Origin: Burkholderia sp. BCC1644
GTDB lineage: Bacteria > Pseudomonadota > Gammaproteobacteria > Burkholderiales > Burkholderiaceae
NCBI RefSeq assembly: GCF_902833225.1
Contig: NZ_CADFEI010000004.1
Location: 186,001-250,000, forward strand
Length of the DNA stretch: 64,000 bases
Reading direction: 5' to 3'
This document shows positions 7,248-54,226 of the stretch, piece after piece; position 1 is the first letter of the stretch, and each line of letters begins with the position of its first letter. The notes below the pieces were generated by a model. The model had not been told where the DNA came from. It did not search any database and worked only from the letters and a program-made list of their open reading frames with translations. The position numbers and the translations under genes were made by a program.

Positions 7248-8432
7248 ATGAGTCGTCGAGTCAACGTCATCGGTGTCGGGATGATCCCGTTCATGAAGCC
7301 GGGCGCGAGCCCGCAGTACCACGAGATGGCCGCGGAAGCCGCGCGTATTGCACTCGCGGATGCCGGCATCCCGTACGACGCGATCGAACAGGTGTACGCC
7401 GGGTATGTGTACGGTGATTCCACCTGCGGGCAGCGGGCGATCTACGAGGTCGGCATGACGGGCGTGCCGGTCGTCAACGTGAACAACAACTGCTCCACCG
7501 GTTCGACCGCGCTGTGGCTCGCGCGCCAGGCGATCGAAAGCGGCGCGGCCGAATGCGTGCTGGCACTCGGGTTCGAGCAGATGGCGAAGGGCGCGTTGAC
7601 GACCTGGTTCAACGACCGCGCATCGCCGCTCGAGCTGCATCTCGACGTCGCCGATGCCGTGCAGGGCGAGACGGACGCGCCGCTGGCCGTGCGGATGTTC
7701 GGCGGCGCCGGGCGCGAGTATATGGAACGCTACGGTGCCGAGCGGGAGACATTCGGCATGATCGCCGTCAAGGCGCGCGAGCACGCCGCGCGTAATCCGT
7801 ACGCGCTGTTTCGCGAGCCGCTGGACCTCGCGCAGGTGATGGGGTCGAGCGAGGTGTTCGATCCGCTCACGCGCTTCCAGTGCTGTCCGCCGACCTGCGG
7901 CGCCGGTTGCGCGGTGCTGTGCTCGGATGACTTCGCGAAACGTCACGGTCTGGCGCGGCGGGTGCACATCGCCGCGCAGGCGATGACCACCGACTACCCG
8001 GGCAGCTTCGAGCCGGCGTCGATGATCCGGATGGTCGGCTACGACATGTCGGCCGAGGCCGCGCGCCAGGTGTACGAGCAGGCCGGGATCGGGCCCGAGG
8101 ATCTCGATGTCGTCGAATTGCACGACTGCTTCACGAGCAACGAGTTGCTCAGTTATGAAGCGCTCGGGCTGTGTCCCGAAGGCGGTGCCGAGCGGTTCGT
8201 TCGCGATCGCGACAACACGTACGGCGGCAAGGTCGTCACCAATCCATCGGGCGGCCTGCTGTCGAAAGGCCATCCGCTCGGTGCGACCGGGCTGGCGCAA
8301 TGCGCGGAGCTGGTCTGGCAACTGCGGGGGGAGGCGGGCGCAAGACAGGTCGAGGGCGCGCGCCTGGCGTTGCAGCACAACATCGGACTGGGGGGCGCCT
8401 GCGTCGTGACGCTGTATCGTCGTGACGCATGA
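7248..8432 (+). CDS. SCP2-type thiolase / lipid-transfer protein
   Basis: 394 residues with AAGGAG ribosome-binding site. Thiolase fold with the nucleophile Cys in NNNCSTGSTALW, the C-terminal SKGHPLGATGLAQ block (conserved His) and a central VVELHDCFTSNELL segment typical of the SCP-x/lipid-transfer subfamily rather than degradative FadA. It probably cleaves or condenses a beta-ketoacyl-CoA. Last gene of the operon; its stop lies 48 bases before the tRNA gene. Together the operon reads as uptake, CoA activation, oxidation and thiolysis of an unknown hydrophobic acid. Confidence 0.88.
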   Translation: MSRRVNVIGVGMIPFMKPGASPQYHEMAAEAARIALADAGIPYDAIEQVYAGYVYGDSTCGQRAIYEVGMTGVPVVNVNNNCSTGSTALWLARQAIESGAAECVLALGFEQMAKGALTTWFNDRASPLELHLDVADAVQGETDAPLAVRMFGGAGREYMERYGAERETFGMIAVKAREHAARNPYALFREPLDLAQVMGSSEVFDPLTRFQCCPPTCGAGCAVLCSDDFAKRHGLARRVHIAAQAMTTDYPGSFEPASMIRMVGYDMSAEAARQVYEQAGIGPEDLDVVELHDCFTSNELLSYEALGLCPEGGAERFVRDRDNTYGGKVVTNPSGGLLSKGHPLGATGLAQCAELVWQLRGEAGARQVEGARLALQHNIGLGGACVVTLYRRDA

Positions 8433-8459
8433 CGCCGTCGTACGGGGCCGGACCGGTGG

Positions 8460-8465
8460 TAGAAT
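8460..8465 (+). promoter_or_regulatory. -10 box of the tRNA-Leu gene
   Basis: TAGAAT sits 15 bases before the mature tRNA 5' end, a normal distance for a tRNA promoter with a short leader. I see no good -35 hexamer at 17 bases upstream. Confidence 0.45.
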
Positions 8466-8480
8466 GCGGTCCGCCCTCTT

Positions 8481-8815
8481 GCCGGGGTGATGAAATTGGT
8501 AAACATAGCGGACTTAAACGATTGAGTGCCCGGCCGGAAACGGTCGGTGCAGAACCCTTCAAATTCGGTGAAACCCCTGATGCGCGCATCGAGGCAACGC
8601 CGAGCCAAGCCTCGCGGTTTTCGCGAGGAAGGTGTAGAGACTAGACGGGGGGCGCCTAAGGCGCACGGGCAGCGGTCACGCCCGCGCGCGACGGTGAAGG
8701 CATAGTCCAGCGCACGAACGGCGTCGCCCACGCGACGCCGGCTTTGAAAGAAGCAGTGTGACGAAAATCCGCCGCCTTAACTGGCTTGCCGGTTCAAGTC
8801 CGGTCCCCGGCACCA
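8481..8815 (+). tRNA. tRNA-Leu(UAA), interrupted by a group I intron
   Basis: The exons are 8481-8515 and 8764-8815. Joined, they fold as a class II tRNA: acceptor stem GCCGGGG (8481-8487) with CCCCGGC (8805-8811), D arm ATG/CAT, anticodon stem GCGGA/TCCGC, seven-base loop CTTAAAA giving anticodon UAA, a long variable arm with GCC/GGC, a T arm with TTCAAGT, discriminator A and encoded CCA (8812-8815). The loop is broken after U34, before A35, exactly where cyanobacterial tRNA-Leu(UAA) introns sit. Without splicing no functional tRNA can form. tRNA-Leu(UAA) is usually a single-copy gene. Confidence 0.93.
8516..8763 (+). ncRNA. Group I intron (IC3-like, Azoarcus type) in tRNA-Leu anticodon loop
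   Basis: 248 nt with no room for a homing endonuclease. Core signatures: AAATTCGGTGAAACC (8561-8575), GGCAACGCCGAGCCAAGC (8593-8610), GGTGTAGAGACTAGACGG (8631-8648) and AAGGCATAGTCC (8697-8708). P7 is GACTA (8639-8643) with TAGTC (8703-8707). P2 is closed by a GAAA tetraloop (8527-8548). A 7-bp hairpin CCTCGCG/CGCGAGG (8610-8628) and an 8-bp P9 hairpin CGGCGTCG/CGACGCCG (8719-8740) are perfect. The 5' exon ends in U (8515) and the intron ends in G (8763), as group I splicing needs; GAGT at 8524-8527 can pair with the exon ACTT with a terminal U-G. From memory the core nearly matches the Azoarcus tRNA-Ile intron. It should self-splice. Confidence 0.92.
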
Positions 8816-8850
8816 CGATCGCTTTCATGGCGATGCGACGACGGTTCGAA

Positions 8851-8887
8851 AACCCGCGAGAAATAAAGCGCTCGCGGGTTTTTTGTT
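8851..8887 (+). terminator. Rho-independent terminator after tRNA-Leu
   Basis: Perfect 10-bp stem AACCCGCGAG (8851-8860) / CTCGCGGGTT (8871-8880), followed by TTTTGTTT. It ends the tRNA transcript and may also stop the upstream catabolic operon. Confidence 0.9.
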
Positions 8888-8949
8888 TGTACGGCGCCTG
8901 GGCCCGCGCAGGTGCGGAAGGTTGCCTATGTCGCTTGGCCCGAGCCCGA

Positions 8950-9954
8950 TCATTCGACGCGCAGTATCAGCTTGCCCGTCGTTCGACCTGATTCGAGCGC
9001 TCGATGCGCGTCCGCAATCGCATCGAACGCATAGCTGCCGCCGATCAGCGGCTTCAGTGCGCCGGTCGCCAGCAGGCCGAACAGTTCGCCCAGCGTCCGG
9101 CGCACGACCTCGTCGGTGAGGAACGCGTACAGTGCGAAGCCGGACAGCGAGCGACAGCCGAAGATGAGCGCGTTCATCAGGTATTCGTCGACCGTGAGTA
9201 GTTGGCCGCTCGCCGCGCCGTAGCTGACGAAACGTCCGAATGTCGCGAGGCCGGCGGCAAGCGTGCGGGCCGCCGTCCCGCCGATCGAATCAAAGACGAC
9301 GTCGGGGCCGGCGCCGCGCGTGACCGTGCTCAACTGACCGGCCCAGTCCTCGTCGCGATAGCTGATGGCGTGATCGGCGCCGAGTGTCGTCACGGTATGC
9401 AGTTTGTCCGGCGCGCCTGCGAGGCCCACGATGGCGCGAGCGCCGTCGAGTCTTGCCAACTGGATCAGCATCGAGCCGACGCCGCCGGCCGCGGCGGTAA
9501 TGGCGACCGTACTTCCGGCCACGCGCGTTTCGCGAAGCAGCATCCTGGCCACCAGTCCTTGCAGCATCACGGCGACTGCATCGTCGTCGGACACCGCGTC
9601 GGGAATCGCGGTGATCAGTGCTGCGCCGAGCGTCACGTATTCGGCGTAGCCACCGGTCGAACGCATTGCGCCGAACAGTGGCGCCGCGACACGCTCGCCG
9701 ATTCGAATGTCGCGGACATTCGCGCCCACGGCGGCAACGGTGCCGACGACTTCGGAGCCGGGCACCGCCGGTAACGCCAGGGCCGGGCCCGGATAGGTGC
9801 CGGCCCGTTGCAGCGTTTCCGGGAAGTTCAGTCCGACGCGCGTGACGCGCACCAGGACCTCGTCGGCGGCAGGTGTCGGACGCTCGATCACGACTGGACG
9901 AAGGACGGAAGGATCGCCGACACGCGCGATCTGGATGGCATGCATGGTGCTCAT
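8950..9954 (-). CDS. Zinc-independent quinone oxidoreductase (MDR family)
   Basis: 334 residues from MSTMHAIQIARVGDPSVL; an upstream in-frame ATG adds 46 low-complexity Arg/Ser residues and overlaps the next gene, so I reject it. Medium-chain dehydrogenase/reductase fold with GroES-like N domain (VRVTRVGLNFPETLQRAG), VPGSEVVGTVAAVG and Rossmann motif AAAGGVGSMLIQLARL. There are no zinc-ligand cysteines, so it belongs with NADPH:quinone reductases. It likely reduces quinones or enals. It is followed in the opposite order by DoxX and Old Yellow Enzyme genes on the same strand, suggesting a redox/electrophile detoxification operon transcribed leftward. Confidence 0.9.
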   Translation of the reverse strand: MSTMHAIQIARVGDPSVLRPVVIERPTPAADEVLVRVTRVGLNFPETLQRAGTYPGPALALPAVPGSEVVGTVAAVGANVRDIRIGERVAAPLFGAMRSTGGYAEYVTLGAALITAIPDAVSDDDAVAVMLQGLVARMLLRETRVAGSTVAITAAAGGVGSMLIQLARLDGARAIVGLAGAPDKLHTVTTLGADHAISYRDEDWAGQLSTVTRGAGPDVVFDSIGGTAARTLAAGLATFGRFVSYGAASGQLLTVDEYLMNALIFGCRSLSGFALYAFLTDEVVRRTLGELFGLLATGALKPLIGGSYAFDAIADAHRALESGRTTGKLILRVE

Positions 9955-10048
9955 GGAAGCATCTCGCTTGAAACGGGGTGTTCGCCCCCGGAATGAATGG
10001 CGCGCGGGCCTGGATCGGCCGCGCGGCAATTGGGTGCTGCCTGATGGA

Positions 10049-10477
10049 TCAGTCCGCCTGCGTGCGATCGAACGCGACGCGGCCGGCGCCATTCAGGACG
10101 AGCGCAAGCAGGCCGCCTGCCATCGACAGATTCATCATGAAGAATGTCTGCTGCGTCTGATCGCCACCGCTGTGGAAGATCACCGCGGCGACGACCGAAA
10201 AGATCGCGAGCCCGAGCGCCGCGAGACGCGTCATGAATCCGGCGATCAGCGCGAGACCTCCGGCGACCTCGACGACGATCACGAGCGGAAGCAGCGCGCC
10301 CGATACGCCCATGTGCGCCATATATTGCTGGGTTCCCGCGTAGTTGAATAGCTTGCTGATGCCTGCGCCGAGATACACGCCGGCGATGAGGAGCCGTACG
10401 AGGACCGATAGCACGATGTTGACGGCGGGAACGCGGACGGCCGTTCGGTAAAGTGCACGGTTGATTGACGTAATCAT
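10049..10477 (-). CDS. DoxX family membrane protein
   Basis: 142 residues from MITSINRALYRTAV; upstream in-frame codons give a non-membrane N-extension that I do not accept. Four hydrophobic segments (about residues 18-38, 55-75, 80-100, 108-128) and the DoxX hallmark LLIAGVYLGAGISKLFNYAG are visible. DoxX proteins are small inner-membrane proteins linked to redox and thiol stress, with function still poorly defined. It sits 76 bases after the Old Yellow Enzyme gene and 94 bases before the quinone reductase, in the same direction, so the three are likely one operon. Confidence 0.88.
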   Translation of the reverse strand: MITSINRALYRTAVRVPAVNIVLSVLVRLLIAGVYLGAGISKLFNYAGTQQYMAHMGVSGALLPLVIVVEVAGGLALIAGFMTRLAALGLAIFSVVAAVIFHSGGDQTQQTFFMMNLSMAGGLLALVLNGAGRVAFDRTQAD

Positions 10478-52119: not shown

Positions 52120-53217
52120 TCAGTTCGCGGCCGGTGCGCTTGCGCCGGACGGCGCCGACGATGCGACAGGGTTGGCCGTGGCCGGCGCGGGCGCTGCGCT
52201 CGACGGTGCGGATGCCGATGCGGGTGCGGAGGTGGCGGATGCAGGCGCGGGCACGGCCGATGCCGGTTTGGCAGCGGCCGGAACCGAAACGGCGGGGGCC
52301 GATGCCGTGGCGGCAGGCGTTGCCGCCGGGCTGGGAGCCGATGCAGGCGCGGAAGCCGATGCGGCAGCCGAAGCCGGTGCGGGCACGGAACCGGAAGCCG
52401 CCGCCGGTGCGGCAGCCGACTGCGAACCGGACGCCGCCGCCGGCGCGGCAGCACGCATCGCAGCCGGTACGGCGACAGCCGACGCCGCGCCAGGCACGGC
52501 ATTCGCACCCGACTCGGGCGCGACACCCGGCACCGACAGCGGTACTGGTGCCGCAGGCGGCGTCGGCACGACCGGCGTCGTCATCTTCATCGGTTCGCCT
52601 TGCGGCGTCGGCGCGGGTTCGGGCAGCGGCGTGACGGCTTCCTTCTCGGCTGCCTTCACGGTCGCACGATCGCGGCGTGCCGGGTCGATCTTCAGGAAAT
52701 GGTCGACGAGATTGAAGAAGCGTTCATAGAACACGCCGGCCGGAATGGTCTCGCTCGCGGTCTTGACGAGCGCATCGTCGCTCGATCCGATCGGCAGCGA
52801 CAGCGAGCCGAACACGCTCAAGCCCACGCTGGCCGACGTATTCGACTTCTTCAGCGTGTAGCGGTCCTGCACGGCGTTCACGTACGCGATGCTCGACGTG
52901 CCGTCGGCATTCGCATCCGCGCACACGACGTGAAATTCGATCACGACGTGCATGTCGTTGTTCGGCTGGAAGTTCTTGCTGCCGTCGACCGCGTCATTGC
53001 GCGATGACGACACCACATAACCCTGGCTCAGCAGCGCGCGCCGTGCGGCCTCGCAGGCCGCGTCGGATTTCGAGTGGAACGTATGCGCATACGGGCTGCT
53101 GGTCGCGTCGAACTGTTCCTGCTGATAGATCGGCTTGGGCGGCGACGAGCACGCCGCCAGCACGGTCGCGGCCGCGAGCGCGCACGAAACGGAAAACAGG
53201 CGAAATCGGTTGTGCAT
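52120..53217 (-). CDS. DUF2242 lipoprotein with long Ala/Pro/Ser tail
   Basis: 365 residues from MHNRFRLFSVSCALAAATVLAACSSPPKPIYQQE; the lipobox L-A-A-C predicts lipidation at residue ~22, with outer-membrane placement. The globular part (~25-200) has the DUF2242 features AHTFHSKSDAACEAARRALLSQGYVVSSSR and VSASVGLSVFGSLSLPIGSSDDALVKTASETI. After ~residue 225 the chain is nearly all Ala, Pro, Ser, Val (~140 residues), possibly spanning the periplasm or peptidoglycan. Function unknown. The upstream in-frame extension has no signal and is rejected. Confidence 0.85.
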   Translation of the reverse strand: MHNRFRLFSVSCALAAATVLAACSSPPKPIYQQEQFDATSSPYAHTFHSKSDAACEAARRALLSQGYVVSSSRNDAVDGSKNFQPNNDMHVVIEFHVVCADANADGTSSIAYVNAVQDRYTLKKSNTSASVGLSVFGSLSLPIGSSDDALVKTASETIPAGVFYERFFNLVDHFLKIDPARRDRATVKAAEKEAVTPLPEPAPTPQGEPMKMTTPVVPTPPAAPVPLSVPGVAPESGANAVPGAASAVAVPAAMRAAAPAAASGSQSAAAPAAASGSVPAPASAAASASAPASAPSPAATPAATASAPAVSVPAAAKPASAVPAPASATSAPASASAPSSAAPAPATANPVASSAPSGASAPAAN

Positions 53218-53332
53218 GGCGTCTTTCAGAAGGCTTGGCGAGAGGCCGCGCAACGGCGGCGCCTGGACGAGGCGTGCGGCAATCTCGTAAGGCCGGGGCG
53301 TCATTATAGTTTCGTTTGATGTCGCGCTCGCT

Positions 53333-54226
53333 TCAGTCGGCCGGCGCAACGCGCGCCGCGGCCAGCAATTGCGACGTCAGCGGATGATGTTCGCCGCGCC
53401 GCGAGCGGATCGCGTGGATCTCTTCGGTCACGTCGCCCGCGCGCCCGAGCCGCCGCAGCCCGCGCAGCAGCGACGCATCGTTCGCGCCAAGTTCGCTCAG
53501 CGGAAACACGCCGAGGCCGCGCGCCGCGAACACGGCCATCAGCGCGCTGTCCTCGAATTCGCCGGCCACGCGCGGCACGATCCGCTCGCCCTCCAGCCAC
53601 AGATCCAGGCGTGCGCGCAGCGCCGAATGCGCGGTCGGCAGCAGCACGGGCAGGTCGGCCAGGCAATGCGGAAAGCGCTGCCGTGCGGCCGGCGTGACGA
53701 GCGCCGCGGGCCCGTACCAGTCGACCGGCGACGCGACGAGCCGCTCGCTCGTCACGCGCAGGTTCGACCCCGACGGCGCCCCCTGGCCGGCCAGCACGAG
53801 ATCGAGGTGATGCAGCGCGAGTTCCGCCAGCAGCGCATCGTGCTCGCCCTCGTGGCACAGCAGTCGCAGCGTGGGCGTGTCGAGCACGGGGGCAAGGATC
53901 GCGTGCGCGGCGAGCTTCGAAATGCCGTCGGCGAGCCCGACCGCGAGCCTCACGGTCGGCTGGCTGGCCGCCGCGCGCACTTCGTCGGGAATCAGCCGCC
54001 CCATCTCGAAGATGACCTCCGCCCGCGCAAACGCGGCCTGGCCCGCGTCGGTCATCGTGACGCCGCGTCCCGCCGGGCGCAGTAATTGGTGCCCGAGCGA
54101 CTTCTCGAGCTCGCGCACCTGCGCGCTGATCGTCTGCACGGCCATGTCGAGCCGGCCGGCCGCGCGCGCGAAGCCGCCTTCCTTCACGACGACCCAGAAG
54201 TAGTACAGATGTCGGAAATTGAGCAT
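53333..54226 (-). CDS. nhaR: LysR family activator of the NhaR type
   Basis: 297 residues. The opening MLNFRHLYYFWVVVKEGGFARAAGRLDMAVQTISAQVRELEKSLGHQLL is the NhaR-type HTH (YYFW and VQTISAQV are distinctive). The effector domain contains LAVGLADGISKLAAHAIL, also NhaR-like. NhaR in Escherichia coli senses Na+ and high pH and activates nhaA. Here it is divergent from a TerC gene, so it may regulate an ion or metal response. The target is inferred from position. Confidence 0.9.
   Translation of the reverse strand: MLNFRHLYYFWVVVKEGGFARAAGRLDMAVQTISAQVRELEKSLGHQLLRPAGRGVTMTDAGQAAFARAEVIFEMGRLIPDEVRAAASQPTVRLAVGLADGISKLAAHAILAPVLDTPTLRLLCHEGEHDALLAELALHHLDLVLAGQGAPSGSNLRVTSERLVASPVDWYGPAALVTPAARQRFPHCLADLPVLLPTAHSALRARLDLWLEGERIVPRVAGEFEDSALMAVFAARGLGVFPLSELGANDASLLRGLRRLGRAGDVTEEIHAIRSRRGEHHPLTSQLLAAARVAPAD

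Follow-up and report, generated by a model that had tools for sequence, protein, structure and literature searches.

An interrupted tRNA-Leu(UAA) gene

The window analysed here is a stretch of 64,000 nt from a contig of Burkholderia sp. BCC1644. When introns were allowed, ARAGORN placed a tRNA-Leu(taa) gene at 8481-8815 on the forward strand, with a mature tRNA of 87 nt and a 248-nt insert after tRNA position 35, that is, between U34 and A35; without the intron option, the program called zero tRNAs in the window. A scan without introns therefore misses the gene, and genomes of the genus can seem to be without tRNA-Leu(UAA). The 5' exon (8481-8515, +) ends with U34, and its 35 nt are identical in five of the seven intron-free alleles of relatives that were fetched. 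It is followed by an IC3-like group I intron of 248 nt ending in G (8516-8763, +), placed by Rfam, ARAGORN and covariation, and by the 3' exon (8764-8815, +) with A35, A36, the long variable arm, the T arm and an encoded CCA, as called by ARAGORN. These results agree exactly with an earlier sequence-only reading, which had given the same coordinates and insert length, had joined the exons into a class II tRNA-Leu(UAA) with the insert after U34, and had rightly taken the host for Burkholderia-like. Its insertion site, U34/A35, places the intron among the tRNA-Leu(UAA) U34 introns.

A U.G pair in P1 at the 5' splice site is an established rule for group I introns. By reading the sequence, P1 (8512-8527, +) was assigned to ACUU at 8512-8515 with an internal guide GAGU at 8524-8527, giving a wobble between U34 and G8524 at the 5' splice site, while a P10 between UU at 8522-8523 and A35-A36 is possible. 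This U.G pair and the last intron base, G8763, both conform to membership of group I. Two other candidates in the window were judged to be due to chance, namely a tRNA-Arg with a 1143-nt intron called by ARAGORN at 52546-53783 and an Rfam mir-9250 match at 9611-9660 (22.4 of 90 bits).

The gene lies between two reading frames named by reading their translations, a putative thiolase-like gene (7248-8432) and a putative oxidoreductase-like gene (8950-10092), in the region 7248-10092. These neighbours are unusual among the genus loci compared: the upstream DNA is common to L022 only, the upstream protein is absent from all other loci compared, and the downstream protein was found only in L398, at 30% identity. 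As the neighbours are so rarely common to the loci, they are of little use for synteny at this locus.

A covarying group I core

The Rfam group I model RF00028 matched 8506-8731 over its whole length with 33.9 bits (E 2.6e-6), below its gathering score of 50, which is a curated score and not a structural feature. The covariance search proposed in the sequence-only reading thus gave a match, but one that by itself is only suggestive.

We therefore rely on compensatory change. The core alignment comprised 10 sequences from four tRNA kinds (Leu 7, 4 of them from the same genus; Thr 1; Arg 1; Ile 1), in which 26 named pairs across P3, P4, P5, P6, P7 and P8 were tested. Results showed standard pairs in 252/252 scorable cells and two-sided change at 11 of the 26 pairs, with 30 cells changed on both sides where shuffles gave 7.4; 0/500 shuffles reached any of five measures, and when partners were slid by 1-3 columns pairing fell to 34-42%. 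Drawing the structure from the aligned sequences themselves biases the test somewhat towards pairing, but not towards so much compensatory change.

In particular, P3 (8555-8560 with 8644-8645 and 8649-8652; +) shows two-sided change at 3/6 pairs, P7 (GACUA/UAGUC, 8639-8643/8703-8707; +), which crosses P3, at 3/5 pairs, and P8 (8653-8656/8693-8696; +) at 2/4 pairs. One pair each shows such change in P4 (8565-8570/8598-8603), P5 (8574-8575/8593-8594) and P6 (8604-8606/8631-8633), all within 8565-8633 (+). By analogy, P7 would be the guanosine-binding helix; its variants are GAGCA/UGCUC in L032-L034, GACUU/AAGUC in L036 and GACUG/CAGUC in L038. The P2 tip with a GAAA loop (8534-8543, +) was positioned by sequence and its helix taken from the fold of the pre-tRNA, and the putative P9 region (8721-8753, +), named by analogy, comprises a hairpin at 8721-8738 and a GAAA-capped hairpin at 8742-8753. 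P7, the capped P2 and the terminal G had all been pointed out before, and each was recovered at the positions given here. The whole pre-tRNA folds better than 100/100 shuffles (z -3.04). The covariation of P3, P5, P7 and P8 argues for selection for splicing.

The intron thus has the P3/P7 pseudoknot and the P3-P8 and P4-P6 domains of group I introns. Subgroup IC3 consists of small ORF-less introns of tRNA anticodon loops with GAAA loops at P2 and P9; the window intron is small, ORF-less and in the anticodon loop, has a homologous core, and has GAAA loops at both places. The IC3 intron of Azoarcus BH72 is inserted after U36 of tRNA-Ile(CAU) and has GAAA loops at P2 and P9. The two are alike in core, P3/P7 layout, insertion in the anticodon loop and GAAA loops, and differ in the tRNA and in the site. 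A crystal structure of the Azoarcus intron is mentioned in the accessible text of PMC3984707.

Alleles with and without the intron

The full-length interrupted gene was present in 37/37 genomes of the genus in the first survey, at 84-100% identity. ARAGORN called an interrupted tRNA-Leu(taa) in all 37. The full-length match was also present in 15/15 genus genomes listed in the family survey; the two surveys together sampled 41 distinct genus genomes, all intron-bearing. The family survey gave a match of any kind in 126/150 genomes. Among the genomes listed there, full-length matches occurred in g616 (11/11), g605 (3/3), g610 (3/3), g603 (8/8), g30 (6/13) and g29 (2/14), and contiguous intron-free exons in g27 (14/14), g29 (11/14) and g30 (7/13); one further g29 genome had the first exon alone. 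All seven fetched intron-free alleles are intact tRNA-Leu(taa) genes of 85 nt.

We compared an intron-free allele (L512) with an intron-bearing one (L497) from one genus. Their 5' exons are identical and their 3' exons differ by one base. The DNA upstream of L512 aligns to that of L497 (1050 of 1400 bases) and of Burkholderia L481 (912), and the downstream DNA of L512 and L497 gave no match. As far as the upstream side shows, the two appear to be one locus with and without the intron. The survey for intron-minus alleles that the sequence-only reading had called for therefore found them within the family, one of them at an upstream-matching locus.

For wider surveys, a covariance model was trained on 10 cores, 7 of them from tRNA-Leu(UAA), with a match threshold of E 0.001. 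Matches were found in at least 63/399 genomes of the order, at least 74/369 of the class and at least 41/398 of the phylum; 7-8 candidates per genome were scored, making these counts lower bounds, and many class matches were weak. The class survey also contained weak close-paired matches (G527:C175:74254-74874, G696:C481:4954-5558 and G673:C1:1911986-1912493), which are perhaps introns in rRNA genes.

We assigned hosts to 70 of the 76 order-survey matches, the six weakest being left out. The hosts were Leu(UAA) in 25 cases, Ile(CAU) after U33 in 18 and after U36 in 10, Arg(CCU) in 5, Ser(UGA) in 3, Leu(CAA) in 3 and Thr(UGU) in 2, with 4 loci receiving no host call; 14/18 of the Ile(CAU) calls after U33 rest on the 3' exon motif alone and 8 other calls on ARAGORN. 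Leu(UAA) after U34 is thus the commonest single site class (25/70), with 28 loci in Ile(CAU) when both sites are taken together. As ARAGORN sometimes mis-spliced hosts (L120, L142, and L356, read as tRNA-Stop(tta)), a stricter exon-pairing script was also used; it left 16/245 rows and 22/71 class and phylum loci without a host. In addition, a Leu(UAA)-specific pattern matched at least 118 named stretches, of which 86 pass the exon-pairing test; these stretches carry no information on host frequency. They place introns after U34 of tRNA-Leu(UAA) in alpha-, beta- and gamma-proteobacteria and in cyanobacteria, the taxa including Bradyrhizobium, Caulobacter, Sphingomonas, Achromobacter, Variovorax, Pseudomonas, Stutzerimonas, Paraburkholderia and Burkholderia guangdongensis. 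The Leu(UAA) site, which had at first been thought surprising in proteobacteria, is instead the commonest single site class among the order-survey loci and extends across all three proteobacterial groups.

Other tRNAs of the genus are interrupted as well. G024 carries a second, related intron after U34 of tRNA-Thr(UGU) (L035:300-584), near an apparent tRNA 3' fragment and in DNA whose G+C is lowered to 56.7%, a setting that resembles a mobile island; G010 carries one after U36 of tRNA-Arg(CCU) in a region of 49.8% G+C (L036:181-468), and G030 one after U33 of tRNA-Ile(CAU) (L038:180-517). In the order and class surveys, tRNA-Ile(CAU) is interrupted after U33 or U36 by introns from different parts of the tree (e.g., L120, L135).

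Origin of the Burkholderiaceae lineage

Two unrooted core trees were compared. The quick tree had 190 rows and excluded hostless rows, identical cores, cores outside 110-260 nt and most members of the genus; the careful tree had 101 hand-picked rows and 152 columns. With about 150 columns, many forks are without support and the backbone differs between the two. In the 190-row tree the window falls in a 15-row group of Leu(UAA) introns from Burkholderia, Mycetohabitans, Vallotia and Paraburkholderia (SH-aLRT 87), and in both trees Leu(UAA) introns of other Burkholderiales branch near this group. In the 101-row tree the window stands with the same rows, but a long branch of introns from another class, presumably alpha-proteobacterial, is nested in the group, and the Burkholderiaceae lineage is therefore not a single clade in that tree. 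Ile(CAU) introns after U36, at what we take to be the Azoarcus-type site, form one clade apart from the window (100/100), and cyanobacterial Leu(UAA) introns another (100/98; 101-row tree). Ile(CAU) introns after U33 form one clade in the 101-row tree (5 rows, 100/99) and require 3 changes in the 190-row tree (7 rows), owing to the long-branch rows L144 and L175 standing apart, both of which are missing from the 101-row set.

Host labels are clustered on the trees, with 9 changes against 28.3 in shuffles (101 rows) and 17 against 39.4 (190 rows). A single clade of all 72 Leu(UAA) rows was nonetheless rejected (p-AU 2e-5); Ile, Arg, Ser, Thr and Leu(CAA) introns fall among them. Judged from these core alignments, the Leu(UAA) U34 introns are a site class and not a closed clade. 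On the unrooted tree this means either that introns of the other hosts descend from Leu(UAA) ones or that the Leu(UAA) site was colonised more than once.

We asked whether the window intron itself came from another tRNA, in that an Azoarcus-type intron of tRNA-Ile(CAU) would have reverse-spliced into the anticodon loop of tRNA-Leu(UAA) in a Burkholderia ancestor. The core type and P7 are the same as those of Azoarcus, movement between tRNAs is known in the family from the trees, and single genomes of the genus also carry the Ile(CAU), Arg(CCU) and Thr(UGU) introns described above. Moreover, a clade uniting the Burkholderiaceae lineage with the Ile(CAU) introns after U36, groups that were chosen after the 190-row tree had been seen, was not rejected (p-AU 0.099). 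However, forcing the two together lowered lnL by 21.9, and the nearest relatives are Leu(UAA) introns: mean core identity to the window is 80% for six Leu(UAA) introns from other Burkholderiales, chosen as near ones on the tree, against 65% for Ile(CAU) introns after U36, which form their own fully supported clade. Between these values lie nine other-class Leu(UAA) introns (73%; four named alpha-proteobacteria and five presumed), a second Leu(UAA) type of beta- and gamma-proteobacteria (14 introns, 71%), the single Thr (71%), Leu(CAA) (68%), Ser (67%) and Ile(CAU) after U33 (66%), with Arg at 65%. As the nearest relatives sit in the same tRNA, a site switch is unnecessary for the window lineage, and we regard it as unlikely. 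Of the switch or transfer between tRNAs put forward in the sequence-only reading, the part that stands is that such movement occurred in the wider family; for the window lineage it is disfavoured.

Direct acquisition of the classic trnL intron from cyanobacteria is less probable still, indeed barely so at all. The cyanobacterial loci have the same tRNA and the same U34/A35 site, and a clade joining them with the Burkholderiaceae lineage, again defined after the quick tree, was not rejected (p-AU 0.077); but mean identity to 8 cyanobacterial introns is 57%, they form their own clade, lnL is 28.3 lower when the two are held together, and proteobacterial Leu(UAA) introns are closer to the window. 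The alignment to known introns proposed earlier was thus made directly for cyanobacteria, and for the Azoarcus site through stand-ins, the Ile(CAU) introns after U36.

Very probably, then, the sole tRNA-Leu(UAA) gene found houses a self-splicing intron of group IC3 type that is old and mainly vertically inherited. An old intron of the Leu(UAA) site would have descended within Burkholderiaceae, as opposed to a recent jump from tRNA-Ile, and precise loss (gain being less likely) would account for the intron-free alleles of some lineages. A second Leu(UAA) type is also present in Burkholderiaceae (L526, L529 and Pararobbsia alpina L443), near introns of Pseudomonas and Variovorax. With two unlike types in one family, inheritance was not purely vertical, and the position of these three loci indicates some transfer between orders.

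Intron-bearing tRNA genes on plasmids and viral contigs

The longest stop-free runs within the intron are 59 codons (+) and 82 codons (-), leaving no room for the usual homing endonuclease gene; the intron thus lacks the endonuclease gene of its own that marks mobile (homing) group I introns. Whole intron-bearing tRNA genes carried on plasmids and phages were probably one means of spread in the family, as may be gathered from the following records.

In the three records examined (L356:2990-3288 of pCTX-M3, L360 and L361), a tRNA-Leu(UAA) gene with an intron, itself left without annotation, is found close to aac(3)-II resistance genes. In L356 and L360 an annotated AAA-ATPase gene, presumably tmrB-like, stands between the tRNA gene and aac(3)-II; in L361 an aac(3)-IId call lies about 1.1 kb from the tRNA gene and no ATPase is annotated. 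Megablast with the pCTX-M3 copy matched 1,280/72,556 plasmid records (1,257 at ≥80% cover and 1,273 at ≥99% identity) and 635/5,426 complete E. coli genomes (624 at ≥80% cover). ARAGORN mis-spliced the gene as tRNA-Stop(tta), and the exon-pairing script read it as Leu(UAA). The plasmid intron core scores 124.6-124.9 bits with the core model, and its neighbours on the trees are Leu(UAA) introns from other classes of the phylum (L199, L202; supports 80-84), presumably alpha-proteobacterial. This placing hints at the source of the aac(3)-II resistance module. In Candidatus Vallotia and Mycetohabitans (L357, L359), the interrupted tRNA-Leu(UAA) gene is on a record deposited as a plasmid.

In viral contigs, at least 120 stretches carry the core motif. 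Of the 120 listed (L236-L355), ARAGORN assigned 60 to tRNA-Leu(taa) and called no tRNA around 37, and the stricter script gave 45/115 Leu(UAA) and 55/115 without a host. Tail genes lie close by in one of these contigs, L243, whose tRNA was read once as Leu(taa) and once as Tyr(ata). In Gordonia phage Daredevil (L530), a tRNA-Lys(ttt) interrupted by 238 nt was called. The window gene itself gave zero matches to phage records. According to the accessible text of a 2014 review, phage introns had been seen in protein-coding genes only (PMC3984707).

Presumed splicing of the sole gene found

The genome of the host is a draft of 8.25 Mb in 101 contigs with an estimated completeness of 100%. It contains 53 RF00005 matches, 13 of them of class II length: Ser 4, Tyr 1, Leu CAG 4, CAA 1, TAG 1 and GAG 2. 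No second tRNA-Leu(UAA) is among these 13, an intact anticodon arm is absent from the draft within 3 mismatches, and one intron of this kind was found in the genome. A second intact gene, which the sequence-only reading had said would, together with solely unspliced RNA, refute its proposal, was thus looked for in the 101 contigs and not found. As no other tRNA-Leu(UAA) gene was found, splicing is presumably essential. One genome of the same genus, G012, has an extra intron-free tRNA-Leu(taa) beside tRNA-Met (L049:117-207) in addition to the interrupted gene.

By analogy with other group I introns, we infer catalysis by the intron itself with guanosine as cofactor, splicing in vivo and a cell that depends on it. 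The precursor would fold into a ribozyme of P3-P9; an external guanosine held in P7 would attack after U34, at the U.G pair of P1, and U34 would then attack after the terminal G8763, joining U34 to A35 and releasing tRNA-Leu(UAA).

UUA is rare in the window: across 37 long, mechanically chosen ORFs rich in GC3, it accounts for 4 of 1386 Leu codons. In Streptomyces, bldA couples UUA-containing genes to the state of the cell, and group I splicing depends on guanosine and Mg2+. As UUA is almost unused in a genome rich in G+C and the sole tRNA found must self-splice with these cofactors, the intron might act as a gate on UUA decoding, its rate of maturation coupling UUA-containing genes to cell state. 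Such a role would account for the intron's presence in every one of the 41 genus genomes sampled. In vivo, however, guanosine levels are probably saturating, and relatives live without the intron, so we consider a gate very unlikely. It is scarcely credible that the insertion is dead, with the tRNA not made and UUA decoded otherwise: the rarity of UUA would be compatible with it, but exons, splice pairing and covarying core are conserved across the genus and no other tRNA with anticodon UAA was found in the draft.

Relation to known introns and implications

According to the accessible text of PMC4033280, which cites Paquin 1997 for the cyanobacterial and plastid tRNA-Leu(UAA) intron, tRNA genes carry group I introns in cyanobacteria and in alpha- and beta-proteobacteria. 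The part of PMC4853749 available describes tRNA-Leu-TAA of BOGUAY and Thiomargarita as having a putative group I intron. Group I introns of tRNA-Ile2(CAU) in Burkholderia and Acidovorax appear in the accessible part of PMC8450103, in which a Leu(UAA) intron is not named; they share with the window the kind of intron and, for Burkholderia, the genus, and differ in the tRNA. The open-access literature searched yielded no account of a Leu(UAA) intron in Burkholderia, which is weak evidence of novelty. Vepritskiy is said to have reported, in 2002, a Leu(UAA) intron in a gamma-proteobacterium, the Pseudomonas-like isolate D0715. The introns of BOGUAY, Thiomargarita and D0715 have the same tRNA and are proteobacterial but belong to other lineages, and are set beside the window intron by description.

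In conclusion, the intron is real and functional-looking, and although its kind is already known, it is the study of intron evolution that gains from it. The family holds one locus with and without the intron, a comparison rarely available in group I intron evolution. Moreover, one intron family occupies Leu, Ile, Arg, Ser and Thr tRNAs, in which loss, gain and movement become countable.
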